Shown here one piece after another: positions 2,951-29,404 of a DNA stretch of 64,000 nt (position 1 is its first letter; each line of letters opens with the position of its first letter). A model generated the notes under the pieces. The model was given only the letters and a program-made list of their open reading frames with translations, had not been told where the DNA came from and did not search any database. This stretch comes from Lysobacter enzymogenes (GTDB lineage Bacteria > Pseudomonadota > Gammaproteobacteria > Xanthomonadales > Xanthomonadaceae): assembly GCF_900106525.1 (NCBI RefSeq), contig NZ_FNOG01000010.1, forward strand, positions 41,424-105,423, written 5' to 3'. The position numbers were made by a program, and so were the translations under genes.

Positions 2951-3292
2951 TTCCAGGGGCGTTCCGTGAGGCCCGTGCAGGTGGCGTACAAGGGCGGGGC
3001 CAGGGAGGGAGATAGGCGGGAAAGAGGGGATTTCGACAGGTTGGCGAAAGACTTGCGGGCCGAGCGTTCGGCGGCGGTCGGGTTGGACTAGAATCGCAGC
3101 TTCGTGCCCGGCCGCCGGTTCCCACAGGCGGCCCGATTCGCAAGGACGCCGGTTGGAAGCGCGTAATTCTAGGCACGCACGACTCGCAAGTGTGGAATCC
3201 CGCCGCGTCCGTTCATCGGCCGCTGCGGGCGGATCGACCTGCCCCGGCGCGCGCCGGGCCCTACTCAAGTGGAATCGGCAACCGAGGAAATC
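2951..3292. promoter_or_regulatory. lysAC upstream region: -10-like element and GC hairpin
   Basis: No gene is visible. A TAGAAT hexamer at 3089-3094 is the best -10 candidate, with a poor -35 (GTTCGG at 3066-3071). This would leave a leader of nearly 200 bases. A perfect 16-base palindrome, CCCGGCGCGCGCCGGG, sits at 3243-3258, just before the lysAC start region. It could form a stable RNA hairpin limiting translation. I could not recognise a lysine riboswitch core. Confidence 0.35.
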
Positions 3293-11323: not shown

Positions 11324-12343
11324 GGGCGGTCGGATCGGTAAAACGGAAATTATAGGGCTTGGGCGCTGGACAACTGAGCCCGCGGCAAGCGGCGGATGGG
11401 GCGGGGCATTCGACGGCGGAGGGGCTGCGGACGGGGCCCGCCAGGGGGCGTTTGCGGGCGACTTAGCTGAATGGGCTGAATCGACTGCCACCAAATGCAG
11501 CTTTTTACGCATTTTTTGAAGGTTTATGCGATCAAGGTCGCACCGCGATTTCACGCGCCTTCTGCGCGAAGGCCGCTAATTTCGACCTGAAAAACCACTT
11601 TTAGTTCGTTCTTTCGACTTGCTTAGCGTGTGGTCCAGGCGATTCGGCATGGCCGCGGGGCCAAGGGCAAAAACTGTCGGACTGCGTCAGTTTTTGGTCC
11701 AAAAAGGCTCAATTTGTGCTTCCTCCATCTCACATGCGATGTGATTTACGTTGAAATAACAATGTGACGGATGGCACAATATTTGTAGTCCTGTCCTGTA
11801 TGGCAGTACGAATCACGTATTGGCGGTAGGGGTTCCACTCAAGGTGAGCAAAAGGCGTGACCTCAGGGCACGCGCCGGATGCGAGCGGAGAGGGGAAGCA
11901 AGGGGGGCACGTATGACGTGTCAGAGGTCAAACATCGGTATCCGGGTGGATATCGCTGGTCCTGCCGTCCAGTGGACGGCTTCCTTCCGAGCGTCGCGCA
12001 GTGGCCCGTACGGGGCGCGCGTCGAGCGGTTCCTGCTGTAACGAAATCGACAGGCCGAGCGGTACCGGCCGGGGCGTCGACGCATGCGTCGAGGTGCCGG
12101 CAGGCAACGCACGACCGACTTCGACGCACGCGCGGCCTGCCGCCGCGGCGCCGGGGGCAGGACCGCCAAGGCTCGAGCGTTCGCGTTCGCTGCGGCAACC
12201 GCATTCGTCGTAAGGCACGACCCGCACCACCAAGGCAAACCCGCAGTAAGCACGTCGACCAGCCGGAAGACGCACGCAGACTCCCGCCGCGAGGCGGGGT
12301 CGGCGCGTCACGGCGCTTACCGATCTCCTGTTTGGGCTACCGC
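11324..12343 (+). promoter_or_regulatory. Long AT-richer leader upstream of the DUF11 operon
   Basis: About one kilobase without a convincing gene lies between divergent ispB and the DUF11 gene. The best promoter is TTGAAA (11751-11756), an 18-base gap, then CACAAT (11775-11780), which would leave an untranslated leader of roughly 550 bases. Other structures are a hairpin AAAAACTG/CAGTTTTT at 11669-11695, the inverted repeat TCACAT-GCG-ATGTGA at 11730-11744, and a perfect 16-base palindrome TCGACGCATGCGTCGA at 12077-12092. The DUF11 frame is open back to 11879, but that part codes for basic, low-complexity sequence and is probably not translated. No known riboswitch was recognised. Confidence 0.4.
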
Positions 12344-15300
12344 ATGAAAATCGCCAACCTCTTCGTTCCGTCCAGCCAGCCGCCGCGTACGCGCGATCCC
12401 GATGCTGGCCCGCGCAAGACTCGCACCGGAATGAGGATGTGGTTCGCCGCGGCGTTGGCGCTGGCGGCGCTGCCGGCCTTCGCCCAGAACTTCCCGGCGA
12501 CGCTGAGCAACACCGCGAGCATTTCGCCGCCGGCGAATGTGACCAACGTCGACACCGCGTGCACCAGCAACGGCGGCGTGTTCAGCGGCGGCGTGTGCTC
12601 CTCGACCGATACCAACACCCTGGCGGCGGTGTCGGACCTGGCGGTGACCAAGACGGTGTCGAACGCGACCCCGACCGTGGGCACCAACGTCACCTTCACC
12701 GTGACCGTGACCAACAACGGCCCGTCGGCCGCGGTCAGCACCGTCGTCAACGACGCGCTGCCGGCCGGCTACACCTTCGTCTCGGCCACGCCGAGCGTGG
12801 GCACCTACAACGCCGGCACCGGCGCCTGGGCGGTCGGCACCCTGGCCACCGGCGCCAACGCCACGCTGCAGATCGTGGCCACGGTGCGTCCGGCCGGCCC
12901 CTACGCCAACACCGCGACCGCCAGCTCGTCTTCCACCGATTCCAACCCGGCCAACAACAGCGCGACCAGCACCCCGGTGCCGGTGGCCTCGGCCGACCTG
13001 GCGGTGACCAAGACGGTGTCGAACGCGACGCCGACCGTGGGCAGCAACGTCACCTTCACCGTGACGGTGAACAACAACGGCCCGTCGGCGGCCGCGGGCG
13101 TCAACGTCAACGACCAGTTGCCGGCCGGCTACACCTTCGTTTCGGCGACGCCGAGCGTGGGCACCTATAACGCCGGCACCGGCGTGTGGGCGGTCGGCGC
13201 GCTGGCCTCGGGCGCCAACGCGACCTTGCAGATCGTCGCCACCGTGCGCGCCACCGGCCCGTACGCCAACACCGCGACCGCGACCTCGACCACCAGCGAC
13301 CCGACCCCGGGCAACAACACCGCGACCAGCACGCCGACCCCGGTGGCCTCGGCCGACCTCGCCGTGGTCAAGACCGCGTCGAGCGCGACGCCGGCGATCG
13401 GCACCAATGTCACCTTTACCATCACGCTGACCAACAACGGCCCGTCCGCGGCGGCTGGCGTGAACGTCAACGACCAACTGCCGGCCGGCTACCTGTTCGT
13501 CTCGGCCACGCCGAGCGTGGGCACCTACAACGCCGGCACCGGCGTGTGGGCCGTGGGCGCGCTGGCCAACGGCGGCAGCGAGACCCTGCAGATCGTCGCG
13601 ACCGTGCTGCCGACCGGCCCGTACGCGAACACCGCGACGGCGACCTCGACCACCGGCGACCCGACCCCGGGCAACAACACCTCGACCAGCACGCCGACGC
13701 CGGTGGCTTCGGCCGATCTGGCCGTCACCAAGACCGCCTCGAACGCGACGCCGACCGTCGGCACCAATGTCACCTTCACCGTGACGGTGAACAACAACGG
13801 TCCGTCGGCCGCCGCAGGCGTCAACGTCACCGACCAGCTGCCGGCCGGTTACACCTTCGTCTCGGCCACGCCGAGCGTGGGCACCTACAACGCCGGCACC
13901 GGCGTGTGGGCGGTTGGCGCGCTGGCCTCGGGCGCCAACGCGACCTTGCAGATCGTCGCGACCGTGCGTCCGACCGGCCCCTACGCGAACACCGCGACGG
14001 CGACCTCGACCACGACCGACCCGACCCCGGGCAACAACACCGCGACCAATACCCCGGTGCCGGTGGCCTCGGCCGATCTGGCTGTGGTCAAGACGGCGTC
14101 GAGCGCGACGCCGGTGGTCGGCACCAACGTCACCTTCACCATCACCCTGACCAACAACGGTCCGTCGGCGGCCGCGGGCGTCAACGTCAACGACCAGCTG
14201 CCGGCCGGCTACACCTTCGTTTCGGCGACCCCGAGCGTGGGCACCTACAACGCCGGCACCGGCGTGTGGGCGGTCGGCGCGCTGGCGGCCAGCGCCAACG
14301 CGACCTTGCAGATCGTCGCCACCGTGCTGCCGACCGGCCCGTACGCGAACACCGCAACGGCGACCTCGACCACGAGCGATCCGACCCCGGGCAACAACAC
14401 CTCGACGACCACGCCGACGCCGGTGGCTTCGGCTGATCTCGCGGTTACCAAGACCGCGTCGAGCGCAACCCCGACGGTGGGCACGAACGTCACCTTCACC
14501 GTGACCGTGACCAACAACGGTCCGTCCGCGGCGGCCGGCGTGAACGTCAACGACCAACTGCCGACTGGCTACACCTTCGTCTCGGCCAACCCGAGCACGG
14601 GCACCTATAACGCCGGCACCGGTGTGTGGGCGGTCGGCAACCTGACCAACGGCGCCAGCGCGACGCTGACGATCACCGCGACCGTGCTGGCGACGGGCAA
14701 CTACGCCAACACCGCCACGGCCACGTCGAGCACCAGCGACCCGACCCCGGGCAACAACACCGCGACCAACACCCCGACGCCGGTGGCTTCGGCCGATCTG
14801 GCCGTGGTCAAGACCGCGTCGAGCGCGACGCCGGTGGTGGGCACCAATGTCACCTTCACCATCACCCTGACCAACAACGGCCCGTCCGCGGCGGCCGGCG
14901 TGAACGTCAACGACCAGTTGCCGGCGGGTTACACCTTCGTCTCGGCGACGCCGAGCGTGGGCACCTACAACGCCGGCACCGGCGTGTGGGCGGTGGGCGC
15001 GCTGGCCAACGGCGGCAGCGAAACCCTGCAGATCGTCGCGACCGTGCTGCCGACCGGCCCGTACGCGAACACCGCGACGGCGACCTCGACCACCAGCGAC
15101 CCGACTCCGGGCAACAACACCTCGACCAGCACGCCGACGCCGGTGGCTTCGGCCGACCTGGCGGTGACCAAGACCGCGTCGAACGCGACCCCGACCGTGG
15201 GCACCAACGTCACCTTCACCGTGACCGTGACCAACAACGGTCCGTCTGGTGCGGCGGGCGTCAACGTCAACGATCAGCTGCCGAGCGGCTACACCTTCGT

Positions 15301-18300
15301 CTCGGCGAACCCGAGCACCGGCACCTACACCGCCGGCACCGGCGTGTGGGCGATCGGCACCCTGGCCAACGGCGCCAGCGCCACGCTGCAGATCGTCGCC
15401 ACCGTGCGCGCGACCGGCAGCTACGCCAACACCGCGACCGCGACCTCGACCACCAGCGATCCGACCCCGGGCAACAACACCGCGACCAACACCCCGACGC
15501 CGGTGGCTTCGGCCGATCTGGCCGTGGTCAAGACCGCGTCGAGCGCGACGCCGACGGTGGGCACCAACGTCACCTTCACCATCACGCTGACCAACAACGG
15601 CCCGTCCGCGGCGGCCGGCGTGAACGTCAACGACCAACTGCCGGCCGGCTACACCTTCGTCTCGGCGACGCCGAGCGTGGGCACCTATAACGCCGGCACC
15701 GGTGTCTGGGCGGTGGGCGCGCTGGCCAACGGCGGCAGCGAGACCCTGCAGATCGTCGCGACCGTGCTGCCGACCGGCCCGTACGCGAACACCGCGACGG
15801 CGACCTCGACCACGAGCGACCCGACCCCGGGCAACAACACCTCGACCAGCACGCCGACGCCGGTGGCTTCGGCCGACCTCGCGGTGACCAAGACCGCGTC
15901 GAACGCGACCCCGACCGTGGGCACCAACGTCACCTTCACCGTGACCGTGACCAACAACGGTCCGTCTGGTGCGGCGGGCGTCAACGTCAACGATCAGCTG
16001 CCGAGCGGCTACACCTTCGTCTCGGCGAACCCGAGCACCGGCACCTACACCGCCGGCACCGGCGTGTGGGCGATCGGCACCCTGGCCAACGGCGCCAGCG
16101 CCACGCTGCAGATCGTCGCCACCGTGCGCGCGACCGGCAGCTACGCCAACACCGCCACGGCGACCTCGACCACGAGCGATCCGACCCCGGGCAACAACAC
16201 CGCGACCAACACCCCGACGCCGGTGGCTTCGGCGGATCTGGCCGTGGTCAAGACCGCGTCGAGCGCGACGCCGACGGTCGGCACCAACGTCACCTTCACC
16301 ATCACGCTGACCAACAACGGCCCGTCCGCCGCTGCGGGCGTGAACGTCAACGACCAGTTGCCGGCCGGCTACACCTTCGTCTCGGCGACGCCGAGCGTGG
16401 GCACCTACAACGCCGGCACCGGCGTGTGGGCGGTGGGCGCGCTGGCCAACGGCGGCAGCGAAACCCTGCAGATCGTCGCGACCGTGCTGCCGACCGGCCC
16501 GTACGCGAACACTGCGACGGCGACCTCGACCACGAGCGATCCGACCCCGGGCAACAACACCTCGACCAGCACGCCGACGCCGGTGGCTTCGGCCGACCTC
16601 GCGGTGACCAAGACCGCTTCGACCGCGACGCCGACCGTGGGCACCAACGTCACCTTCACCGTGACCGTGACCAACAACGGTCCGTCTGGTGCGGCGGGCG
16701 TCAACGTCAACGATCAGCTGCCGAGCGGCTACACCTTCGTCTCGGCGAATCCGAGCACCGGCACCTACACCGCCGGCACCGGCGTGTGGGCGATCGGCAC
16801 TCTGACCAACGGCGCCAGCGCCACGCTGCAAATCGTCGCCACCGTGCGCGCGACGGGCAGCTACGCCAACACCGCGACCGCGACCTCGACCACCAGCGAC
16901 CCGACCCCGGGCAACAACACCGCGACCAGCACGCCGTCGCCGACCGCCTCGGCCGATCTGGCCGTGGTCAAGACCGCCTCGAGCGCGACCCCGACGGTGG
17001 GCACCAACGTCACCTTCACCATCGCGTTGAGCAACAACGGCCCGTCCGATGCGGCCGCGGTGGTGGTCAACGATCCGCTGCCCAGCGGCTACACCTTCGT
17101 CTCGGCGAACCCGAGCGTGGGCACCTACGACAACGGCACCGGCGCCTGGACCGTCGGCGCGCTGGCCAACGGCGCCAACGCCACGCTCGACATCGTCGCC
17201 ACCGTGCGCGCGACCGGCAGCTACGCCAACACCGCCACCGCGACCTCGACCACGGGCGATCCGGACAGCGCCAACAACAGCTCGACCAATACGCCGACGC
17301 CGGTGGCTTCGGCCGACCTGGCCGTGGTCAAGACCGCGTCCAACCCGACCCCGGTGGTCGGCACCAACGTGACCTTCACCATCGCGGTCAGCAACAACGG
17401 CCCGTCCGACGCCGCCGCGGTGGTGGTCAACGATCCGTTGCCGAGCGGCTACGCCTTCGTCTCGGCCACGCCGAGCGTGGGCGCCTACAACAACGGCACC
17501 GGCGCCTGGACCGTCGGCACCCTGGCCAACGGCGCCAGCGCCACGCTCGACATCACCGCGACCGTGCTGGCGACGGGCAACTACGCCAACACCGCCACGG
17601 CGACCTCGACCACGGGCGACCCGACTCCGGGCAACAACACCGCGACCAACACCCCGACCCCGGTGGCTTCGGCCGACCTGGCCGTGGTCAAGACCGCGTC
17701 CAACCCGAACCCGACGGTCGGCACCAACGTCACCTTCACCATCGTGGTCAGCAACAACGGCCCGTCCGCAGCCGACGCGGTGGTGGTCAACGACGCGCTG
17801 CCCAGCGGCTACACCTTCGTCTCGGCCAACCCCAGCACCGGTACCTACAACGGCACCGCCTGGACTGTGGGCACCCTGGCCAACGGCGCCAGCGCCACGC
17901 TGACCGTCACCGCGACGGTTCTGGCGACGGGCAACTACGCCAACACCGCGACCGCGACCTCGACCACGGGCGACCCGACCCCGGGCAACAACAGCTCCAC
18001 CAGCACGCCGTCGCCGGTGGCCTCGGCCGACCTGGCGGTCACCAAGACCGTCGACAACGCCGCGCCGCCGGTCGGCAGCAACGTGACCTTCACCATCGAA
18101 GTCAGCAACGCCGGCCCGTCCGCGGCCGACGCGGTGGTGGTCAACGATCCGCTGCCCAACGGCTACGCGCTGGTGTCGTCGACGCCGAGCGTGGGCACCT
18201 ACAACGGCACCGCCTGGAACGTGGGCAACCTGGCCGCGGGCGCCAACGCGACCCTGACCGTGGTGGCGCGCGTGCTGGAGACCGGCAGCTACGCCAACAC

Positions 18301-21300
18301 CGCCACCGCGACCTCGCCGACCTCCGACCCGAACAGCGGCAACAACACCGCCACTTCGACGCCGGTGCCGACGCGCAACCCGCAGATGACCCTGGCCAAG
18401 GCCCAGACCAGCTACGCCGACAACGATTCCAGCGGCACCATCACCATCGGCGACGTGCTGACCTACACCTTGACCGCCACCAACACCGGCAACGTCACCT
18501 TGCACAACGTGGTCATCACCGACAGCAAGACCACGCCGTCGAGCTGGAACTGCCCGGACATGGCGCCGACCGGCCCGAGCGCGGTGTGCACCGTCACCGG
18601 CACCTACACCGTGGTCCAGGCCGACGCCGCCAGCGGCAACATCGTCAACAACGCCGGCGTGACCTCGGCCGAGATCACCACGCCGGTGACCGCGACCACC
18701 AACACCCCGGTGCAGCGCCGTCCGATCGTGGCCAACAACGACGCCGGCACCGTCGCCAACGGCGCCGCCGGCGGCACCGCGGTGGCCAACGTGCTGAGCA
18801 ACGACACCCTCAACGGCCAGCCGGCGACCACCGCCACGGTGACCATCAGCCAGGTCTCCACCTCCGATCCGAAGGTGACCCTGGATCCGGCCACCGGCGC
18901 GGTGCATGTCGCCCCGGGCACGCCGAAGGGCAGCTACACGGTCGAGTACCGGATCTGCGAAATCGCCGACCCGGCCAACTGCACCACCGCGACCGTCGCG
19001 GTGACCGTCGACGCTGCGCCGATCGACGCGGTCGACGACATCGTCGCCAGGCCGGTCAACGGCGCCACCGGCGGCACCAACGTGGTCAACGTGCTCGGCA
19101 ACGACACCCTGGGCGGCAGCGCGGTCAATCCGGCCGACGTCACCGTCAAGCCGAACAGCAACGGCCCGCTGACGGTCAAGGCCGACGGCAATGTCGATGT
19201 CGCGCCGAACACCCCGGCCGGCACCTACACCGTCACCTACCAGCTGTGCGAAGTGCTGAACCCGGCCAACTGCGACACCGCGACGGTCACCATCACCGTG
19301 TCGGCGCCGGCGATCACCGCCACCGACGACCCGGCCGGCGGCACCGGCGTCACCCCGCAGAACACGCCGGTGACCACCAACGTGATCGCCAACGACACGC
19401 TCAACGGCGCGCCGATCGATCCGAACCTGGTGACCATCACCGTCAGCACCGGCCCGGCCAACGGCACCACCGTGGTCAACAGCGACGGCACCATCACCTA
19501 CACGCCGCGCAACAACTTCAGCGGCGACGACGTCTACACCTACACGATCTGCGAGAAGCTCAACCCGACCAACTGCGCCACCGCGCAGGTGCACGTGACC
19601 GTGCAGCCGAACAAGGTCACCGCCAACCCCGACACCGCCCAGACCAACCAGCAGACCCCGGTGACCATCAACGTGATCGGCAACGACACGGTGACCGGCG
19701 CGCCGCTGGATCCGGCCTCGGTGAGCGTGGTCGGCCAGCCGGCCAACGGCACGGTGACCTGCACGGCGGGTTCGTGCACCTACACGCCCAAGCAGTTCTT
19801 CGCCGGCACCGACAGCTTCACCTACCGCGTCTGCGACACCTCCTCGCCGACGCCGGTGTGCGCCAACGCCACGGTGACCATCACCGTGATCGCCAACGCG
19901 CCGGTGCTGCGCCTGGTCAAGACCTCGGCGGTGCGCGAGGTCAAGATCGGCGACCTGGTCCGCTACAGCGTGCTGATCGAGAACGTCGGCGACTCGCCGG
20001 CGGTGAACGCCACCCTGGTCGATATCCCGCCGGCCGGCTTCACCTTCGTCGACAACTCGCTGACCGTGGACGACGACAACAAGAACGGCGTGGTCATCAG
20101 CGCCAACCCGCTGCGCATCGGCGGCATCGACGTGGCGATCGGCGGCAAGGCCACCGTGAGCTACTTCCTGCGCGTCGGCGCCGGCGTGGGCAAGGGCACG
20201 CACAAGAACCAGGTCACCGGTTACGACGACAAGGGCACCAAGATCTCCAACGACGCCACCGCCGAAGTGACCATGGCCGGCGACCCGCTGCTGGAAGACA
20301 GCCTGCTGGTCGGCAGCGTGTTCGACGACCGCGACGGCGACGGCTGGCAGGATCCGGCCAAGGCCACCGGCGTGCGCGTGCAGGGCGGCTTCGCGCCGAA
20401 CGCCTACGTCGCCGGTTCCACCACCGTCGACCGCGGCGAAGGCCCGGTCGCCGAGCCCGACGCGAGCGCGCCGATGCTGCACGGCATCGCCCTGGGCCGC
20501 ATCGACGGCCGTGGTTCGGCGGCGATGCCGACGCGCGAAGTGGTGGTGCGCCAGACGCTGAGCGAACTGGCCTTCACCGACGACTTCGTGCTGACCACCG
20601 ACGAAGGCACCACCGTGCGCATGGGCGCCGACGGCCGCAGCACGGTCGAACGCACCCGAGGCGACGCTGCCAAGGGTTTGACCGCGCAAGACCTGCAGGT
20701 CACCCGTCAGGTCAGCCAGGGCGCGGCCGGTTACGTCGTCTCCTACACGATCCGCAACAACGGCATCGAGGAGCGCGGCATTCCGGGCGTGCGCATCGCA
20801 TCGGTGGAAGGTCTGATCATGGAAACCGACGCGTACGGCCGTTACCACCTGGAAGGCATCGAGGGCGGCAACGCCGCGCGCGGCCGCAACTTCATCCTCA
20901 AGGTCGATCCGGCCACGCTGCCGCCGGGCTCGGTGTTCACCACCGAAAACCCGCGCGTGCGCCGCATCACCCAGGGCATCCCGACCCGCTTCGACTTCGG
21001 CGTCAAACTGCCGCCGGGCGAAGTGTCCGGGACCAAGTCGGAGACCGACGTGGAACTGGGCGAGGTGATGTTCGACGCCGGCAGCGCCAAGGTGAAGGAG
21101 AGCTACGCGCCGATGTTCGGCCAGATCGCCGCCCGCCTGCGCGATGCCGGCGGCGGCAGCGTCACCGTCGCCGCGCAGGCCGATGAGGAGGCCCTGGCCT
21201 TCGCCCGCGCCCGCGCAGTGCAGGCCGAGCTGCTCAAGCAGATCGAGGGCGACCCGGCGCTGGCGAGCAAGGTCAAGGTGGACGTGGTCGCCGGCACCGA

Positions 21301-21622
21301 CGCGACCCTGGTCAGCCTGGACCCGGCGATCCGCCTGGGCGAGGTGCTGTTCGACACCGACCAGGCCACGATCAAGCCGCAGTACCGCGCGCTCATCAGC
21401 GAAATCGCCAAGACGCTCAACCAGCAGGGCAGCGGTGCGATCGGCATCGTCGGCCGCGCCGACAAGCGCGGCGCGAGCGCCTACAACGTCCAGCTGGGAC
21501 TGCGTCGCGCCAAGGCCGTGTTCGAAGCGATCGCGGCCGAACTCAAGCCCGAGGTAAGGCAGAAAGTGCGAGTGGATATCACCGACGACACCCAGGCGCC
21601 GGTCGGCGTGGGCAACCGCTGA
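12344..21622 (+). CDS. Giant DUF11-repeat surface protein with C-terminal OmpA-like domains
   Basis: This protein of about 3,092 residues has a signal peptide after an extended basic N-region (hydrophobic core AAALALAALPAFA, near residues 33-46). From residue about 97 to 2010 come 16 tandem DUF11 (CARDB-like) beta-sandwich repeats of 117-120 residues. A related domain follows (2011-2125), then four Ig-like/cadherin-like modules with NDTL motifs (2126-2516), one more DUF11-like domain, an SdrD-B-like segment (VFDDRDGDGWQD) and two OmpA-like domains (from about 2905). The last has the peptidoglycan-binding RADKRGASAYN and LRRAKAV. The likely topology is a periplasmic OmpA anchor with a very long repeat stalk. 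ATG 12431 is an alternative start. Function is unknown; adhesion is inference. Confidence 0.85.
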   Translation: MKIANLFVPSSQPPRTRDPDAGPRKTRTGMRMWFAAALALAALPAFAQNFPATLSNTASISPPANVTNVDTACTSNGGVFSGGVCSSTDTNTLAAVSDLAVTKTVSNATPTVGTNVTFTVTVTNNGPSAAVSTVVNDALPAGYTFVSATPSVGTYNAGTGAWAVGTLATGANATLQIVATVRPAGPYANTATASSSSTDSNPANNSATSTPVPVASADLAVTKTVSNATPTVGSNVTFTVTVNNNGPSAAAGVNVNDQLPAGYTFVSATPSVGTYNAGTGVWAVGALASGANATLQIVATVRATGPYANTATATSTTSDPTPGNNTATSTPTPVASADLAVVKTASSATPAIGTNVTFTITLTNNGPSAAAGVNVNDQLPAGYLFVSATPSVGTYNAGTGVWAVGALANGGSETLQIVATVLPTGPYANTATATSTTGDPTPGNNTSTSTPTPVASADLAVTKTASNATPTVGTNVTFTVTVNNNGPSAAAGVNVTDQLPAGYTFVSATPSVGTYNAGTGVWAVGALASGANATLQIVATVRPTGPYANTATATSTTTDPTPGNNTATNTPVPVASADLAVVKTASSATPVVGTNVTFTITLTNNGPSAAAGVNVNDQLPAGYTFVSATPSVGTYNAGTGVWAVGALAASANATLQIVATVLPTGPYANTATATSTTSDPTPGNNTSTTTPTPVASADLAVTKTASSATPTVGTNVTFTVTVTNNGPSAAAGVNVNDQLPTGYTFVSANPSTGTYNAGTGVWAVGNLTNGASATLTITATVLATGNYANTATATSSTSDPTPGNNTATNTPTPVASADLAVVKTASSATPVVGTNVTFTITLTNNGPSAAAGVNVNDQLPAGYTFVSATPSVGTYNAGTGVWAVGALANGGSETLQIVATVLPTGPYANTATATSTTSDPTPGNNTSTSTPTPVASADLAVTKTASNATPTVGTNVTFTVTVTNNGPSGAAGVNVNDQLPSGYTFVSANPSTGTYTAGTGVWAIGTLANGASATLQIVATVRATGSYANTATATSTTSDPTPGNNTATNTPTPVASADLAVVKTASSATPTVGTNVTFTITLTNNGPSAAAGVNVNDQLPAGYTFVSATPSVGTYNAGTGVWAVGALANGGSETLQIVATVLPTGPYANTATATSTTSDPTPGNNTSTSTPTPVASADLAVTKTASNATPTVGTNVTFTVTVTNNGPSGAAGVNVNDQLPSGYTFVSANPSTGTYTAGTGVWAIGTLANGASATLQIVATVRATGSYANTATATSTTSDPTPGNNTATNTPTPVASADLAVVKTASSATPTVGTNVTFTITLTNNGPSAAAGVNVNDQLPAGYTFVSATPSVGTYNAGTGVWAVGALANGGSETLQIVATVLPTGPYANTATATSTTSDPTPGNNTSTSTPTPVASADLAVTKTASTATPTVGTNVTFTVTVTNNGPSGAAGVNVNDQLPSGYTFVSANPSTGTYTAGTGVWAIGTLTNGASATLQIVATVRATGSYANTATATSTTSDPTPGNNTATSTPSPTASADLAVVKTASSATPTVGTNVTFTIALSNNGPSDAAAVVVNDPLPSGYTFVSANPSVGTYDNGTGAWTVGALANGANATLDIVATVRATGSYANTATATSTTGDPDSANNSSTNTPTPVASADLAVVKTASNPTPVVGTNVTFTIAVSNNGPSDAAAVVVNDPLPSGYAFVSATPSVGAYNNGTGAWTVGTLANGASATLDITATVLATGNYANTATATSTTGDPTPGNNTATNTPTPVASADLAVVKTASNPNPTVGTNVTFTIVVSNNGPSAADAVVVNDALPSGYTFVSANPSTGTYNGTAWTVGTLANGASATLTVTATVLATGNYANTATATSTTGDPTPGNNSSTSTPSPVASADLAVTKTVDNAAPPVGSNVTFTIEVSNAGPSAADAVVVNDPLPNGYALVSSTPSVGTYNGTAWNVGNLAAGANATLTVVARVLETGSYANTATATSPTSDPNSGNNTATSTPVPTRNPQMTLAKAQTSYADNDSSGTITIGDVLTYTLTATNTGNVTLHNVVITDSKTTPSSWNCPDMAPTGPSAVCTVTGTYTVVQADAASGNIVNNAGVTSAEITTPVTATTNTPVQRRPIVANNDAGTVANGAAGGTAVANVLSNDTLNGQPATTATVTISQVSTSDPKVTLDPATGAVHVAPGTPKGSYTVEYRICEIADPANCTTATVAVTVDAAPIDAVDDIVARPVNGATGGTNVVNVLGNDTLGGSAVNPADVTVKPNSNGPLTVKADGNVDVAPNTPAGTYTVTYQLCEVLNPANCDTATVTITVSAPAITATDDPAGGTGVTPQNTPVTTNVIANDTLNGAPIDPNLVTITVSTGPANGTTVVNSDGTITYTPRNNFSGDDVYTYTICEKLNPTNCATAQVHVTVQPNKVTANPDTAQTNQQTPVTINVIGNDTVTGAPLDPASVSVVGQPANGTVTCTAGSCTYTPKQFFAGTDSFTYRVCDTSSPTPVCANATVTITVIANAPVLRLVKTSAVREVKIGDLVRYSVLIENVGDSPAVNATLVDIPPAGFTFVDNSLTVDDDNKNGVVISANPLRIGGIDVAIGGKATVSYFLRVGAGVGKGTHKNQVTGYDDKGTKISNDATAEVTMAGDPLLEDSLLVGSVFDDRDGDGWQDPAKATGVRVQGGFAPNAYVAGSTTVDRGEGPVAEPDASAPMLHGIALGRIDGRGSAAMPTREVVVRQTLSELAFTDDFVLTTDEGTTVRMGADGRSTVERTRGDAAKGLTAQDLQVTRQVSQGAAGYVVSYTIRNNGIEERGIPGVRIASVEGLIMETDAYGRYHLEGIEGGNAARGRNFILKVDPATLPPGSVFTTENPRVRRITQGIPTRFDFGVKLPPGEVSGTKSETDVELGEVMFDAGSAKVKESYAPMFGQIAARLRDAGGGSVTVAAQADEEALAFARARAVQAELLKQIEGDPALASKVKVDVVAGTDATLVSLDPAIRLGEVLFDTDQATIKPQYRALISEIAKTLNQQGSGAIGIVGRADKRGASAYNVQLGLRRAKAVFEAIAAELKPEVRQKVRVDITDDTQAPVGVGNR
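12632..18370 (+). repeat. Sixteen tandem 360-bp repeats encoding DUF11 domains
   Basis: Units of 360 bp begin with codons for ASADLAV, with unit 2 starting at 12986 and later units in register; units 15 and 16 are slightly shorter. Units 2-13 strictly alternate between a DLAVTKT form and a DLAVVKT form, so the effective repeat is 720 bp. The blocks 15146-15865 and 15866-16585 are nearly identical: 15181-15420 equals 15901-16140 base for base. This indicates recent unequal recombination. Confidence 0.9.
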
Positions 21623-21632
21623 GGACATGGCC

Positions 21633-24600
21633 ATGAAGATCAAGATGAAGCTTCTGGACATGACCCTGATCGGCCTGCTGTCCGGCGGCGTGTTCGCCGC
21701 CGGCGCCGCCGCCCCGGCTTACGCGCAAAAAACCGGCCAGCCCAGCCTGCCGCAGTCCAAAGGCGACGGCGGCCGCGGCACCGCACCGGTCGACCTGCGC
21801 TCGCTCGACAAGCCGGCGCCGGCGCGCGAAGCGCTGGTGCCCGAGGTGCCGACGCAGTGCGTCGGCGACGAGTGCCGCAGCGACGAAGGCCTGCTGTTCC
21901 GCGTGCGCACGCGCGGCGAGGACAAGCCGGTGGCGCAAGGCGACGACGCAGCCGCGTTGCAGGCCAACCGCCGCGTCGACGTGGTGCGCGAGAACGTCGC
22001 GCCGGGCTCGGCCAAGATCGCCGGCAAGTTCCAGATCGACCTGCCCAACGGCGGCGTGATCTGGGCCACCGAAGATCCCACCCTCGGCCCGCCGGTGCTC
22101 AACGTGCAGACCGGCTCGACCGCGCCGTTCGAGAACGGCCGCATCACCAAGCCGGTGCGCTTCCACGGCTACACCAACTACGCCTCGTTCATCGACAAGC
22201 TGCAGGTCACCGTGTACCGCGGCAGCGACACCGACCTGGTAACGCCGCTGGCGACCATCGACCTGCCGGTGGAGAGCGTCTCCGAACAGGAATGGGACGG
22301 CACCCTGCCGGCCGGGCTGAACCTGCTCGCCGGCGACGAGCTGATCTACATCGCGCGCGCTTACGGCAAGAGCGGCGCGACGACCACCACGTTCGACGAG
22401 ATCCAGCCGCAGCGCATCCAGCTGCTCAAGCCCGAAGAGTACGAGCGCGGCATCCAGATCCAGCGCGAGCAGGTGCAAAAGACCCTGGGCCAGCCGATCG
22501 ACGAGCGCAACGCCCAGGACCTGGCCGTCACCAGCTCGATCTACGGCACCAACGCGATCCGGTTGCAGAACATCCCGGTGTACGGCTCGCGCGTGCGCAT
22601 CTACGGCCGCGACATCCCGCGCGACAGCCAGATCACCATCAACGATCAGAGCTTCCCGATCGACCTGGAGCGCAAGTTCGCCGCCGAGTTCCTGGAACCG
22701 ATCGGCCCGCACAACTACGCGGTCAAGATCAAGAGCCAGGGCGGGGCGACGCTTACGAGGAGCCTCGACGTCAACGTCACCGGCAAGTACAGCTTCCTGG
22801 TCGCGCTGGCCGACGTCACCCTGTCCAAGAACAGCGTCAGCGGCAACATCGAGCCGCTCGCCGCCGGCGACCGCGGCCGCTACGACGACAGCTTCATCAG
22901 CGAAGGCCGCCTGGCGTTCTATTTGAAGGGCAAGGTGCAGGGCAAGTACCTGATCACCGCCCAGGCCGACACGCGCGAGAACGAGATCAAGCGCCTGTTC
23001 AACGGCTTCTTCGACGCCGACGCGCAGGACATCTTCCGCCGCCTCGATCCGAACCTGTACTACCCGGTCTACGGCGACGACTCCAACACCTACCGCGACG
23101 TCGACACGCAAGGCAAGCTGTACCTGCGCGTGGACTGGGACCAGAACCAGGCGGTGTGGGGCAACTTCAACACCGGCATCACCGGCACCGAATACGCCCA
23201 GTACAACCGCTCGCTGTACGGCGCGGCGCTGGCCTGGCGCAGCCGCAACACCACCGTGCTCGGCGATCCGCGCAGCGAGCTGCGGGTGTTCGGTTCCGAA
23301 GCGCAGAGCGCGCTGGGCCACACCGAATTCCTCGGCACCGGCAACAGCCTGTACATGCTGCGCCACACCGACCTGCTGCCGGGTTCGGAAAAGGTGACCG
23401 TCGAAATCCGCGACGTCAGCACCGGCCGGGTCGAGTCGCGCGTCGACCTCGCCCGCGGCGCCGATTACGAAATCAACAACATGCAGGGCCGCATCCTGCT
23501 GACCCGTCCGCTGTCGCAGATCACCCGCGAGAACGTGCGCACGCTGACCCGCGACACCCCGCTGGACGGTTACACCCAGCGCTTGCTGGTGGATTACGAA
23601 TACGTCCCGGCCGGTTTCCAGACCGACGACGTCAGCGCCGGCTTCCGCGGCAAGCAGTGGCTCGGCGATCACTTCGCCGTCGGCGGCACCTACGTCGACG
23701 AGAACCGCAGCGGCGACGACTACACCCTCAAGGGCGTGGACCTGACCCTGCAGGCCGGCCGCGGCACCTACCTGAAGCTGGAGAAGACCCGCACCGAGTC
23801 GACCTCGGCGCCGCTGTGGTACTCCACCAACGGCGGTATCGACTTCACCCGCATCAACCCGATCGACGGCCCGCGCAAGGGCGACGCCGACAAGATCGAA
23901 GCGCGCGCCAACTTCAAGGAACTGGGCTGGACCCAGCTCGACTGGAGCGCCGGCGCGTGGTGGCGCGACATCGATCCGGGCTTCTCGATCTCGCGTTACG
24001 ACCAAGGCCAGGCGGTGCGCGAATACGGCGCCGAGTTCCTGGGCTACTTCACCGAGACCTTCAGCCTGTTCGGCCGCCACACCCGGCGCGAGAGCGGCGA
24101 CCAGGCGCTCGAGCAGAGCCAGCTGACGATGGACTGGCGCATCACCAACGACGACCAGCTCGGCGCCGAACTGCGCCGCATCCGCGAAGAGCGCGGCGTG
24201 GGCTCGACCACGCCGGACCTGGACGCGATGCTGTTCGCGATGCGCTACACCCACCGCATCGGCTCCAGCCTGGAGCTGTACGTCGCCGGCCAGTACACCG
24301 TCGACGACGACGGCGGCAAGTACAAGCGCAACGACCTGGGCACCATCGGCGCGCGTTACCTGTTCGGCGACCGCTCCAGCATCAACGCCGAATACAGCAA
24401 CGGCAGCCGCGGCGACGCCGGCAAGGTCGACGCCGAATACCGCCTGACCCCGGACCACACGATCTACGGCGGCTACACCTTCAGCACCGACCGCACCGAG
24501 CGCGACCCGCTGTTCGACAACGTGCTGCAGACCGGCTGGACCATCGGCCAACGCTGGCGCCTCAACAACCAGACCAACCTCTACAACGAAAGCCAGTTCC

Positions 24601-25448
24601 TCAAGGACCCGCGCGACGCCAGCCAAGGCATCGCCCACACCTTCGGCATGGATTTCTATCCCGGCGAAGGCTGGAACCTGGGCTTCAGCGTGATGGACGG
24701 CGACCTCGACGCGGCCAGCGGCCACATCGACCGCCGCGCCTACAGCCTCAGCGGCGGCCGCACCGACCAACGCACCGACTGGTCGAGCAAGCTCGAATAC
24801 CGCAAGGACAGCGGTGCCGAACGCCGCGAAGCCTGGACCACCGCGAACCGGCTGTTCTACAAGATCAACGACGACTGGCGCATCGCCGCACGCTTCCTGT
24901 ACTCCGACATCAAGGACCAGATCGACGCCTCGCGCGGCGCCAAGACCGTGGAAGGCAACCTCGGCTTCGCCTACCGCCCGCATGACAGCTCGCGCTGGGC
25001 CGCGTTCGGCAAGTACATCTATTTGTACGACCTGGCCACCATCGGCCAGGAAGGCGGCAACCAATACGACCAGCGCTCGCAAGTGCTGTCGTTCGAAGGC
25101 ATCTACCGCCTAGACGACAAGTGGGAACTGGCCGCCAAAGCCGCCAGCCGCTGGGGCGACTACCGCATGGGCCGCGGCGAAGGCCTGTGGCTGGACAGCC
25201 GCGCCGACTTGCTGGCCGGGCAGGTGCGCTATCACCTGATCGCCAAGTGGGACGCGATGGCGGAGTACCGCTGGTTGTCGGTGAAGGACGGCGGCGATCG
25301 GCGCGGTTGGCTGGTCGGGGTGGATCGGCAGTTGAGTCAGAACTTCAAGGTGGGGATTGGGTATAACTTCACCGACTTTAGCGATGATTTGACGGATCTG
25401 GAGTACGACAATAAGGGGTGGTTCCTCAACTTGGCCGGTTACTACTGA
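21633..25448 (+). CDS. Large outer-membrane beta-barrel partner of the DUF11 protein
   Basis: This protein of about 1,271 residues has a signal peptide ending in PAYAQ. Near residue 105 a short segment ending QANRRVDVV resembles the end of an OmpA C-terminal domain. A periplasmic region of roughly 300 residues follows, then a C-terminal barrel from about residue 380 with many alternating amphipathic strands. The last residues, LNLAGYY, end in an aromatic residue as barrel proteins do. I see no TonB box or plug. GAGGA at 21621-21625 overlaps the stop of the upstream gene and suits the ATG at 21633; ATG 21627 is too close to it. The pair is one operon. Export or anchoring of the DUF11 stalk is an inference; no function is known to me. 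Confidence 0.8.
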   Translation: MKIKMKLLDMTLIGLLSGGVFAAGAAAPAYAQKTGQPSLPQSKGDGGRGTAPVDLRSLDKPAPAREALVPEVPTQCVGDECRSDEGLLFRVRTRGEDKPVAQGDDAAALQANRRVDVVRENVAPGSAKIAGKFQIDLPNGGVIWATEDPTLGPPVLNVQTGSTAPFENGRITKPVRFHGYTNYASFIDKLQVTVYRGSDTDLVTPLATIDLPVESVSEQEWDGTLPAGLNLLAGDELIYIARAYGKSGATTTTFDEIQPQRIQLLKPEEYERGIQIQREQVQKTLGQPIDERNAQDLAVTSSIYGTNAIRLQNIPVYGSRVRIYGRDIPRDSQITINDQSFPIDLERKFAAEFLEPIGPHNYAVKIKSQGGATLTRSLDVNVTGKYSFLVALADVTLSKNSVSGNIEPLAAGDRGRYDDSFISEGRLAFYLKGKVQGKYLITAQADTRENEIKRLFNGFFDADAQDIFRRLDPNLYYPVYGDDSNTYRDVDTQGKLYLRVDWDQNQAVWGNFNTGITGTEYAQYNRSLYGAALAWRSRNTTVLGDPRSELRVFGSEAQSALGHTEFLGTGNSLYMLRHTDLLPGSEKVTVEIRDVSTGRVESRVDLARGADYEINNMQGRILLTRPLSQITRENVRTLTRDTPLDGYTQRLLVDYEYVPAGFQTDDVSAGFRGKQWLGDHFAVGGTYVDENRSGDDYTLKGVDLTLQAGRGTYLKLEKTRTESTSAPLWYSTNGGIDFTRINPIDGPRKGDADKIEARANFKELGWTQLDWSAGAWWRDIDPGFSISRYDQGQAVREYGAEFLGYFTETFSLFGRHTRRESGDQALEQSQLTMDWRITNDDQLGAELRRIREERGVGSTTPDLDAMLFAMRYTHRIGSSLELYVAGQYTVDDDGGKYKRNDLGTIGARYLFGDRSSINAEYSNGSRGDAGKVDAEYRLTPDHTIYGGYTFSTDRTERDPLFDNVLQTGWTIGQRWRLNNQTNLYNESQFLKDPRDASQGIAHTFGMDFYPGEGWNLGFSVMDGDLDAASGHIDRRAYSLSGGRTDQRTDWSSKLEYRKDSGAERREAWTTANRLFYKINDDWRIAARFLYSDIKDQIDASRGAKTVEGNLGFAYRPHDSSRWAAFGKYIYLYDLATIGQEGGNQYDQRSQVLSFEGIYRLDDKWELAAKAASRWGDYRMGRGEGLWLDSRADLLAGQVRYHLIAKWDAMAEYRWLSVKDGGDRRGWLVGVDRQLSQNFKVGIGYNFTDFSDDLTDLEYDNKGWFLNLAGYY

Positions 25449-25480: not shown

Positions 25481-25512
25481 AAAAGGGCGTCCGCGAGGGC
25501 GCCCTTTTCTTT
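25481..25512 (+). terminator. Rho-independent terminator of the DUF11/barrel operon
   Basis: The stem AAAAGGGCG (25481-25489) pairs with CGCCCTTTT (25500-25508) across a 10-base loop and is followed by CTTT. It lies 32 bases after the stop of the barrel gene and fits intrinsic termination well. Confidence 0.85.
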
Positions 25513-28171: not shown

Positions 28172-29404
28172 ATGTCCCACACTTCCGTTCGTGCCTCGAT
28201 GTTTTCGGTCGCATGCCTGACCGCCCTGGCCGCACCCGTTGCGAATGCAGCCTATGTCGACGCAGGGGCCGATCCGGCGCTCATCGATCCGGCGCTGACG
28301 CAGGCCCTGTCGCGCGACCTCGACGTTTCGCCAGACCAGCTGCCGCAATTGCTGCGCGTGCAGCGCCATGCGAGCGCCGAGGAAGCTCTCATCCGGCGCG
28401 AACTCGGCAAGGATTTCGCCGGCAGTTGGATCGAGCGCGCGCCAGACGGCGCTTCCCGGCTGATCGTGGCCACGTCGGGACGTCAGCGCGCGAGCGACTT
28501 ATGTTCGAACCTGTGCGGCAGCGTCGAAGTGCGCCAGGTCCGGCATAGCTGGAGTCGGCTGCAGGCTTCAAAGCAACGTTTGGACGAGATGCTGCGATCG
28601 CTTCGGATCGGCATCCACAAGCCGCTGCGCGGCATCCGCACCTGGCACGTCGATCCGATCAGCAACCGAGTCGTCGTCCGCGTCGCCCGCAACGCCGGAC
28701 CGGACGTGGCCGACTTCATAGCTGCGAGCGGCGCTGACACGGACGCGATACGTTTCGAATACATGGACGGCGCGCCGCAGCCGACCAATTGGATCTTCGG
28801 TGGGATTTCATACATCACCGCCTCCGGCGGCGGCTGCACCTCGGGCTTCGCTGCCTACAAGGGCACGGCTCCCGGCGTGGTGACCGCCGGCCACTGCGGA
28901 ACCGCGCCGGATCGGATCGACGTGGATTGGTCGGGCATCGGCAGGACCTACTTCGGCGTGTTCGAGAACTCCAGGTTCCCCGGCGCGGACCGTGGATGGA
29001 TCCGCTCGTCGGCCTCGTTCGCCGTTTCGGCGCAGATTTACGACTGGAGCGGCGGCTACATCACCGTCAAAGGCTCCGCCGAAGCGCCGATCGGGGCGAC
29101 GGTATGCCGCTCCGGGCCGAAGACGGCTTATCGCTGCGGGCAGATCACCGCCAAGCAAGTCACGGTCAACTATCAGCTCGGCGCGCTCTACAACATGAGC
29201 GAGGGCAACAACTGCTCCGGCCTGGGCGATTCCGGTGGGCCGTGGATCGATTTGCTCGGGCAGGCGCAGGGAATCCAGTCCGGCAACAGCGGCGTATCCA
29301 GCGCCGGCCACAACTGCGACATGCCGGCGTCGCAGCGCAGATCCTGGTTCGATCCGATCAATCCGATCCTGAGCGAGTTCGGCCTGGTTCTGGCCGTGGG
29401 CTGA
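28172..29404 (+). CDS. Secreted alpha-lytic-protease-like serine protease precursor
   Basis: This 410-residue preproenzyme of the chymotrypsin fold (S1E type) has a signal peptide (1-26, ending ANA). A pro-region of about 178 residues contains a WHVDPISNRVVVRV strand like that of alpha-lytic protease. The mature domain starts near Thr205 (TNWIFGGISYI). The triad is His241 (VTAGHCG), Asp273 (GADRGW) and Ser354 (GLGDSGGPW). Six cysteines in the mature part suggest disulfides. Such proproteins fold with help from the pro-region and are secreted; Lysobacter uses them as bacteriolytic and proteolytic enzymes. AAGGAGG at 28158-28164 gives a strong start. The gene appears monocistronic. Confidence 0.93.
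   Translation: MSHTSVRASMFSVACLTALAAPVANAAYVDAGADPALIDPALTQALSRDLDVSPDQLPQLLRVQRHASAEEALIRRELGKDFAGSWIERAPDGASRLIVATSGRQRASDLCSNLCGSVEVRQVRHSWSRLQASKQRLDEMLRSLRIGIHKPLRGIRTWHVDPISNRVVVRVARNAGPDVADFIAASGADTDAIRFEYMDGAPQPTNWIFGGISYITASGGGCTSGFAAYKGTAPGVVTAGHCGTAPDRIDVDWSGIGRTYFGVFENSRFPGADRGWIRSSASFAVSAQIYDWSGGYITVKGSAEAPIGATVCRSGPKTAYRCGQITAKQVTVNYQLGALYNMSEGNNCSGLGDSGGPWIDLLGQAQGIQSGNSGVSSAGHNCDMPASQRRSWFDPINPILSEFGLVLAVG

Follow-up and report, generated by a model that had tools for sequence, protein, structure and literature searches.

A DUF11 stalk protein of Lysobacter enzymogenes and its linked outer-membrane barrel, a possible exporter or holder of surface fibres

Introduction

How a long adhesin locked by isopeptide bonds could cross the outer membrane of a Gram-negative bacterium is the question raised by a two-gene locus of Lysobacter enzymogenes. 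The locus lies in a stretch of 64,000 nucleotides (assembly GCF_900106525.1, contig NZ_FNOG01000010.1, positions 41,424 to 105,423), hereafter the window, and consists of a gene for a stalk protein rich in DUF11 repeats and a gene for an outer-membrane barrel. Isopeptide domains should resist unfolding, and a narrow pore therefore seems unsuitable; the open-licence papers on long isopeptide-bonded Gram-negative adhesins, in their available text, give no explanation of the crossing. An earlier note, made from the DNA alone, had described a secreted protein of about 3,092 residues with 16 DUF11 repeats and Ig-like modules, followed after ten bases by a barrel of about 1,271 residues. The open reading frames, Pfam and a tandem repeat array bear out this description, and the barrel gene was confirmed in its place. 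The parts on which the argument turns are as follows.

12344..21622, + strand: gene for the 3092-aa stalk protein, a secreted adhesin of the fibrillar type (open reading frame, Pfam)
19907..21019, + strand: membrane-proximal module of the stalk, the last DUF11 and an SdrD_B-like domain with an insertion (co-occurs with the barrel)
21633..25448, + strand: partner outer-membrane barrel gene, 1271 aa (open reading frame, homologues, AlphaFold model)

The barrel is linked to the C-terminal module of the stalk

Barrel homologues were detected in 60 of 199 genomes, which comprised the host and its relatives up to the rank of order. A named genome collection yielded 117 barrel places, and the best 80 of these, which were kept, included Lysobacter (the loci closest to the window's pair), Stenotrophomonas, Pseudoxanthomonas, Luteimonas, Comamonas, Lampropedia, Variovorax, Acinetobacter, Pseudomonas, Microbulbifer, Saccharophagus and Dyella. 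Together with 20 loci from the relative search, the window's own among them, they formed a set of 100 loci in which some strains occur twice. The C-terminal part of a stalk, its frame taken from the matches, lies directly upstream of the barrel in 97 of these loci; in the remaining three the stretch starts at a contig end, 3, 69 or 104 bases ahead of the barrel match. Since the pair recurs across many genera, it is not a product of chance. Candidate barrel starts, which are guessed in many loci and lack a start codon within the scanned stretch in four, mostly fall in the interval from 4 bases ahead of the stalk stop to 15 bases past it. One record labelled Bacillus subtilis (L087) holds a Gram-negative stalk–barrel locus, probably an assembly contamination.

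A single sample of 398 Pseudomonadota genomes was then searched with profiles of both parts. The barrel profile matched 56 genomes and the module profile 57, with 53 matched by both, three by the barrel only, four by the module only and 338 by neither (Fisher p 2.7e-57, kinship ignored). Of the genomes with the barrel only, two are incomplete assemblies (G403, G465) and one has a fragment containing a stop (G419); the four module-only genomes are three weak matches (G146, G397, G422) and an incomplete assembly (G453). The module was located within 4 kb upstream of the barrel, on the same strand, at 57 of 64 barrel places. In G377 it lies downstream on the same strand, in a frame of at least 2761 aa that starts right past the barrel stop, and the other six places (G403, G249, G374, G465, G399, G419) are short fragments or fragmented assemblies. 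In one genome the barrel is spread over two frames (G279, contig C1, 1813385-1817103; profile positions 1-1076 and 1077-1220), as a broken gene or a sequencing error.

The earlier note had named frequent occurrence of the DUF11 gene without the barrel as a finding that would speak against the pair; the pair survives this genome-wide check, and linkage of barrel and stalk is close to certain. The dedicated barrel partner was thus rightly proposed, but the partner unit is not the DUF11/OmpA stalk as such: the co-occurring unit is the C-terminal DUF11–SdrD_B module, not DUF11 generally and not OmpA. The SdrD_B label comes from Pfam matches in three relatives (L145, L161, L165). The host genome (6.26 Mb) holds three stalk–barrel systems, namely the window's, one on contig C18 with OmpA and one on contig C9 without it, besides numerous further DUF11 genes.

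Architecture of the stalk

The remaining features of the stalk gene, and the hairpin that follows the pair, are listed here.

12485..12634, + strand: mature N-terminus of the stalk, residues about 48-97, an orphan segment and putative donor for a tip protein, Cys class
12635..18373, + strand: 16 tandem DUF11 (CLIPPER) repeats (repeat alignment, triad motifs)
18377..19906, + strand: DUF7507-like and Big_9 Ig modules (Pfam)
21044..21292, + strand: first OmpA-like domain, degenerate, without a Pfam match (close relatives, AlphaFold model)
21302..21583, + strand: second OmpA domain (Pfam, alignment, AlphaFold model)
25481..25508, + strand: terminator-like hairpin of 12 pairs past both genes (hairpin scan)

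The start at 12344 is preferred to an in-frame ATG at 11879, which would give 3247 aa, because a signal-peptide-like stretch, judged by eye, lies behind it. The segment at 12485..12634 resembles the final strands of a DUF11 domain. Repeats 1-16 span residues 98-2010 and correspond to a 360-bp tandem array of 15.9 copies, and a 17th DUF11 starts at about residue 2522. DUF11 has been renamed CLIPPER in a study whose available text describes an isopeptide bond formed by Lys, Asp and Asn (PMC12617251). With triad positions set from that study, the three motifs are present in all 16 repeats (Lys in 15 by one pattern and in the first repeat as DLAVTK, Asp in 16, Asn in 16), and the bond itself is predicted.

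Across 20 related stalks, Pfam found DUF11 in 20, OmpA in 19, DUF7507 in 17, CshA_NR2 in three and GEVED in three. By eye, the C-terminal part is constant between stalks and the N-terminal letters vary; Pfam shows no N-terminal adhesive domain in the window's stalk. The earlier note counted two OmpA domains, of which Pfam sees a single one above its cut-off (residues 3002-3064). The AlphaFold model of the last 552 residues (pLDDT 87.4, pTM 0.51) contains two successive alpha/beta domains at 2901-2983 and 2987-3080, and a home-made OmpA profile finds two OmpA domains in each of the close relatives L139 and L173. Asp3040 and Arg3055 of the OmpA peptidoglycan-binding motif are conserved in 33/33 and 34/34 of the aligned rows that have a letter there (38 rows in total), and peptidoglycan binding is predicted. 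As for the single terminator proposed after both genes, the 12-pair stem is the longest listed, but 17 such sites were counted in the region and 12.7 in shuffled sequence, which makes the scan by itself weak evidence.

Two further observations concern the stalk gene. Between 15152 and 16231, next-but-one DUF11 repeats (from residues 937 and 1177) are identical as protein and 98.9% alike as DNA, which points to duplication or conversion in the recent past. An antisense frame free of stops (12317-21661, - strand, 3114 aa) spans the entire gene and is probably a by-product of the GC-rich repeats.

Fused forms and the moving OmpA domain

Module and barrel share one open frame at 33 of 57 places and are split at 24. 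In the fused frames the module precedes the barrel, an autotransporter-like order; the Autotransporter domain PF03797 was not found in the five fused relatives scanned (L145, L161, L162, L165, L167). Arrangements were read in 36 distant or paralogous loci with home-made profiles, with which Pfam agrees where applied.

Stalk–module–OmpA, then barrel: L139, L173
Stalk–module, then barrel, then a separate OmpA gene: L141, L142, L158, L166, L172, L174
Stalk–module, then OmpA–barrel: L143, L144, L146, L147, L156, L157
One frame, module–OmpA–barrel: L159, L160, L161, L164, L171
One frame, module–barrel, no OmpA found: L145, L162, L163, L165, L167, L170
One frame, module–barrel, OmpA in the next gene: L168
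Split, no OmpA found: L140 (the host's own system without OmpA), L148-L151, L153-L155
Others: L169, cut by a contig end; L152, reversed order

OmpA was rejected as a defining part of the system, as it moves between positions, with five arrangements at or beside the stalk–barrel junction, or is not found. In a tree of 45 barrel domains, rooted at its midpoint only, two large clades are seen. Fused L145 sits among split forms, and a split clade (L158, L166, L172, L174) lies inside the mostly fused clade; from this placement we read that the fused and the split state were interconverted more than once. A gene of about 350-480 aa, resembling a secreted subunit, directly precedes the fused module–barrel gene in eight loci (L159, L161-L165, L168, L170).

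The barrel protein

An ATG at 21627 is also possible as the start of the barrel gene. Three regions can be distinguished in the protein.

22032..22784, + strand: N-terminal strand/helix region, residues about 134-384, probably periplasmic (AlphaFold model)
22842..23924, + strand: most conserved core, residues about 404-764, common to the most distant relatives (profile and model)
23571..25439, + strand: strand-rich C-terminal half; the protein ends in Tyr (AlphaFold model)

The AlphaFold model, built from a 42-row alignment, predicts 32 strands of at least eight residues within the last 625 residues, with further ones before. Barrels folded by the BAM machinery often have an aromatic last residue, and a C-terminal Tyr is present in 97 of 97 near barrels. 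The barrel has no Pfam family above cut-off and no NCBIfam match, as is the case for its homologues L141 and L152, and a PDB sequence search with the protein and two profiles gave no convincing match. The absence of a match to known secretion barrels, stated in the earlier note, is therefore upheld by Pfam, NCBIfam and PDB sequence, and the confident homology to a known transporter with another cargo, which it had named as a second refuting finding, did not appear by sequence. TonB receptor, porin, TPS (two-partner secretion) partner and usher were each considered as the barrel's identity and set aside, no such family being above cut-off. By Foldseek E-value, the best structural matches include the S-layer barrel SlpA, SprA, Cir, the FimD usher and LptD.

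Putative tip proteins with an incomplete DUF11 domain

Among the loci examined, every one of the 25 DUF11 domains located at a protein's end (E of 1e-4 or better, at most 16 residues before the stop) is incomplete, 22 stopping at profile positions 80-89 and three at 90-99 of 111. Internal DUF11 domains reach position 100 or more in 293 of 338 (Fisher p 2e-20, rows not independent). Pfam gave the same picture for six of eight putative tip proteins, whose best DUF11 stops at 84-88 of 114, at most two residues from the end; for L060 and L099, the remaining two, its best stretch is a different, complete domain. Most of the nine tips scanned carry CshA_NR2, DUF6923, SpaA-type or polysaccharide-lyase domains. 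Where a distance is listed, 17 of 18 tip frames lie downstream of the barrel, their starts ranging from 2.0 kb ahead of its stop to 5.0 kb past it (L107 on the opposite strand); the remaining one, L053, lies far upstream.

The window itself yielded no tip gene. Six DUF11 proteins of the host genome end in an incomplete domain. The one beside the C9 barrel, directly after the barrel gene, is a 692-aa CshA_NR2–GEVED–SpaA_3 protein (L140, 4363-6438, - strand) and a candidate tip. The other five, of 646-821 aa (L183, L184, L185, L187, L188, on contigs C15, C9 and C16), are possible partners for the host's stalks.

The strands missing from such domains could be supplied by the mature N-terminus of the stalk. 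A short donor-strand HMM found no match in the window's stalk and matched a mature start only in L055, L076 and the fused L162 and L165, at E 0.48 or worse. In an initial motif count, which relied on a poor guess of the signal peptides, 13 of 42 stalks were positive. A second count used a five-residue motif, chosen post hoc, after a better yet crude signal-peptide guess; seven of the 42 closed stalk frames, judged to start inside repeats or masked stretches, were dropped, 35 and the window's were kept, and the small gene of L168, open at a contig end, was left out. The motif was then found in 16 of 36 stalks (shuffled mean 2.24), 7/7 small subunits (0.55), 6/9 fused proteins (0.42) and 2/22 tips (1.01). 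The window's donor segment belongs to the Cys class, without a clear Asn-Asn motif. Donor-type stalks have a tip gene in the locus in 5 of 15 cases versus 2 of 20 for the others, which is not significant (p 0.11); reassigning L107, whose N-terminus is donor-like by eye, shifts the link to p 0.03.

In a MAFFT alignment of 27 cut domains (22 from loci, five from the host genome), with L184 misaligned at its end, Lys is retained in 26 and Asp in 27. By profile alignment, Lys and Asp occur jointly in 15/22 cut versus 256/406 internal domains, with Asn poorly scorable (58/406); retention in cut domains therefore equals, and does not exceed, that in internal ones. The clearest locus is L148, where the tip has a cut C-terminal domain but no donor, the stalk has a donor, and an adaptor has both. 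Taken together, and with mixed controls, the letters of these proteins suggest that tips may dock onto the stalk N-terminus by donor-strand complementation, perhaps covalently.

Proposed mechanism and alternative explanations

We hypothesize that the barrel exports or holds the isopeptide-locked stalk, a reading that we consider fairly probable, with export itself inferred. In its favour stand the stalk C-terminus directly upstream at nearly all barrel loci, the fused frames and the repeated change between fused and split forms, the OmpA domain at or beside the junction in many loci, the Tyr ends of the near barrels, the constant C-terminal and variable N-terminal parts of the stalks, and a correlation of barrel with module distances over 38 loci (r 0.77). 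According to the signal peptide, the stalk would reach the periplasm, where its C-terminal DUF11–SdrD_B module would work with the neighbouring cognate barrel. The barrel might pass the stalk outward, either with its N-end leading or as a hairpin, and afterwards hold its base, and the OmpA domains, where present, would remain periplasmic and clamp that base to peptidoglycan. The distal, N-terminal end would bear the adhesive part, either fused on or, for stalks of the window's type, docked as a separate tip. The system would act like a split autotransporter, with a barrel from a different family. The suggestion of the earlier note, that the stalk is passed or held by the barrel, is favoured by the fused forms and remains conjectural. 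A bolder version, which seems to us possible but doubtful, proposes a new export route across the outer membrane, with a giant barrel of 32 or more strands passing folded isopeptide-locked Ig domains and holding the stalk, and with a natural split-isopeptide coupling of tips. The last DUF11 of the tip would keep Lys and Asp and lack the Asn-bearing strands, such strands would come from the mature N-terminus of the stalk, and tips would click onto the stalk, covalently in Asn-bearing stalks. Click-on tips of this kind would be comparable to SpyTag/SpyCatcher.

Several results weigh against export or holding by the barrel. Confidence in the barrel model is modest (pLDDT 71.1, pTM 0.60), and the Foldseek TM-scores against SlpA, SprA, the usher, LptD and TonB receptors are all 0.34 or lower among the 50 matches listed. 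Only 15 of 36 distant or paralogous barrels have an aromatic end (F in nine, Y in five, W in one). The correlation of the distances may stem from common ancestry. In the 12 fused frames inspected, one of which (L145) is open at a contig end, the passenger ahead of the module measures a short 359-928 aa from the frame start, and fused forms may therefore not be long stalks. Finally, as OmpA was not found near several systems, peptidoglycan clamping cannot be general.

The barrel could instead be an anchor only, with the stalk crossing by another route such as type II secretion and its base then plugging in from outside. An Acinetobacter adhesin is reported as a type II substrate in the available text of one paper (PMC9245377), and the constant C-terminal module might be the plug; in the fused forms, however, module and barrel form one chain, so the passenger cannot first be secreted as a free protein, and we hold this route to be improbable. 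Far less likely still is a nutrient receptor or porin unrelated to transport of the stalk. Among 20 listed of 24 plasmid-record names of homologues are 'TonB-dependent receptor', 'hypothetical protein', 'OmpA family protein' and 'outer membrane protein transport protein', and porin- and barrel-type Pfam families match the window barrel weakly, below their cut-offs; against this, neither Plug nor TonB_dep_Rec matches it in Pfam at E 1 or better, and the module pairing is strict and extends to fusions.

For the fused relatives, a pilus-like system is conceivable, if on balance unlikely: subunits encoded by the upstream gene (about 400 aa) would join through donor strands into a polymer on the barrel protein. 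The recurrence of this gene before the fused one and the N-terminal donor motif in every small subunit counted speak for this, as does a DUF11 that stops at 84 of 114, at most two residues from the C-terminus, in three of nine scanned genes (L163, L165 and the 1005-aa gene of L167). The missing strand could also come from the subunit's own N-terminus, DUF11 has no match in L161 and L159 and only matches below cut-off in L164 and L167, and such a pilus would concern relatives, not the window's pair. Export or holding by the barrel is the explanation we favour for the pair itself.

Significance and neighbouring genes

The pairing suggests an undescribed way to build and anchor surface fibres. 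In the open-licence PMC literature, a scope outside which most subscription papers and preprints fall, no paper on the stalk–barrel pair came up among the best 8 to 20 titles of each search, and no description of the barrel was found. On present evidence the kind of stalk is already in print, as a CLIPPER fibrillar adhesin, and the barrel partner, the fused forms and the possible tip docking seem to be new. With the partner barrel pinned by strict linkage and fusion, in genera including soil bacteria, the export question becomes directly testable; tip docking, if true, would provide naturally occurring protein pairs that couple by themselves.

Elsewhere in the window, an amino acid kinase is joined to a PLP-dependent (pyridoxal phosphate-dependent) decarboxylase of the Orn/DAP/Arg type (3269-5893, + strand), and a serine protease carries an alpha-lytic protease prodomain (28172-29404, + strand).

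Comparison with known systems

The crystallised CLIPPER domain (structure 9IFR) comes from the fibrillar adhesin B9T28_05395 of Acinetobacter silvestris ANC 4999, for which an OmpA-like anchoring domain is mentioned (PMC12617251, available text). This adhesin and the window's stalk are alike in their DUF11 stalk, isopeptide chemistry (predicted here) and OmpA-like end. Our locus L103 from the same strain, tied to B9T28_05395 by strain and length and not by locus tag, has a stalk frame of 2145 aa from stop to stop versus the published 2129 aa, and a barrel gene adjoins it. The available main text of that paper contains none of 'outer membrane', 'secret-' or 'barrel', and the partner gene thus seems to go unmentioned there.

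SprA, the type IX translocon, is likewise a very large barrel, and its chains rank 2nd, 3rd, 5th and 12th by Foldseek E-value. It differs in that an E-value of 5e-8 is accompanied by TM-scores of only 0.08-0.15, and it is not among the PDB sequence matches. Membership of the SprA family, considered because of a resemblance, is not supported by profile search and has weak support from the fold; the SprA_N search itself matched nothing, controls included, and is uninformative.

In Myxococcus, the surface adhesin TraA is followed by the OmpA-domain envelope protein TraB, the genes overlapping by four bases (PMC3325183, available text). The layout resembles the stalk–barrel pair by description; TraA, unlike the stalk, uses MYXO-CTERM. 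Archaeal threads are described, in the text available, as joined by donor-strand complementation and apparent intermolecular isopeptide bonds (PMC9715654). They and chaperone–usher pili consist of other proteins, and the window's pair has no usher or chaperone domain match (Pfam, E up to 1); donor-strand complementation, here a putative docking mode, is what they would have in common with it. Type Va and Vb secretion differ in the family of the barrel, and by the same Pfam search the window's pair lacks Autotransporter, POTRA, Omp85-type barrel, ShlB and haemagglutination-activity domains. The likeness to these two types lies in the passenger–barrel order of the fused forms and in the neighbouring passenger and barrel genes of the split ones.

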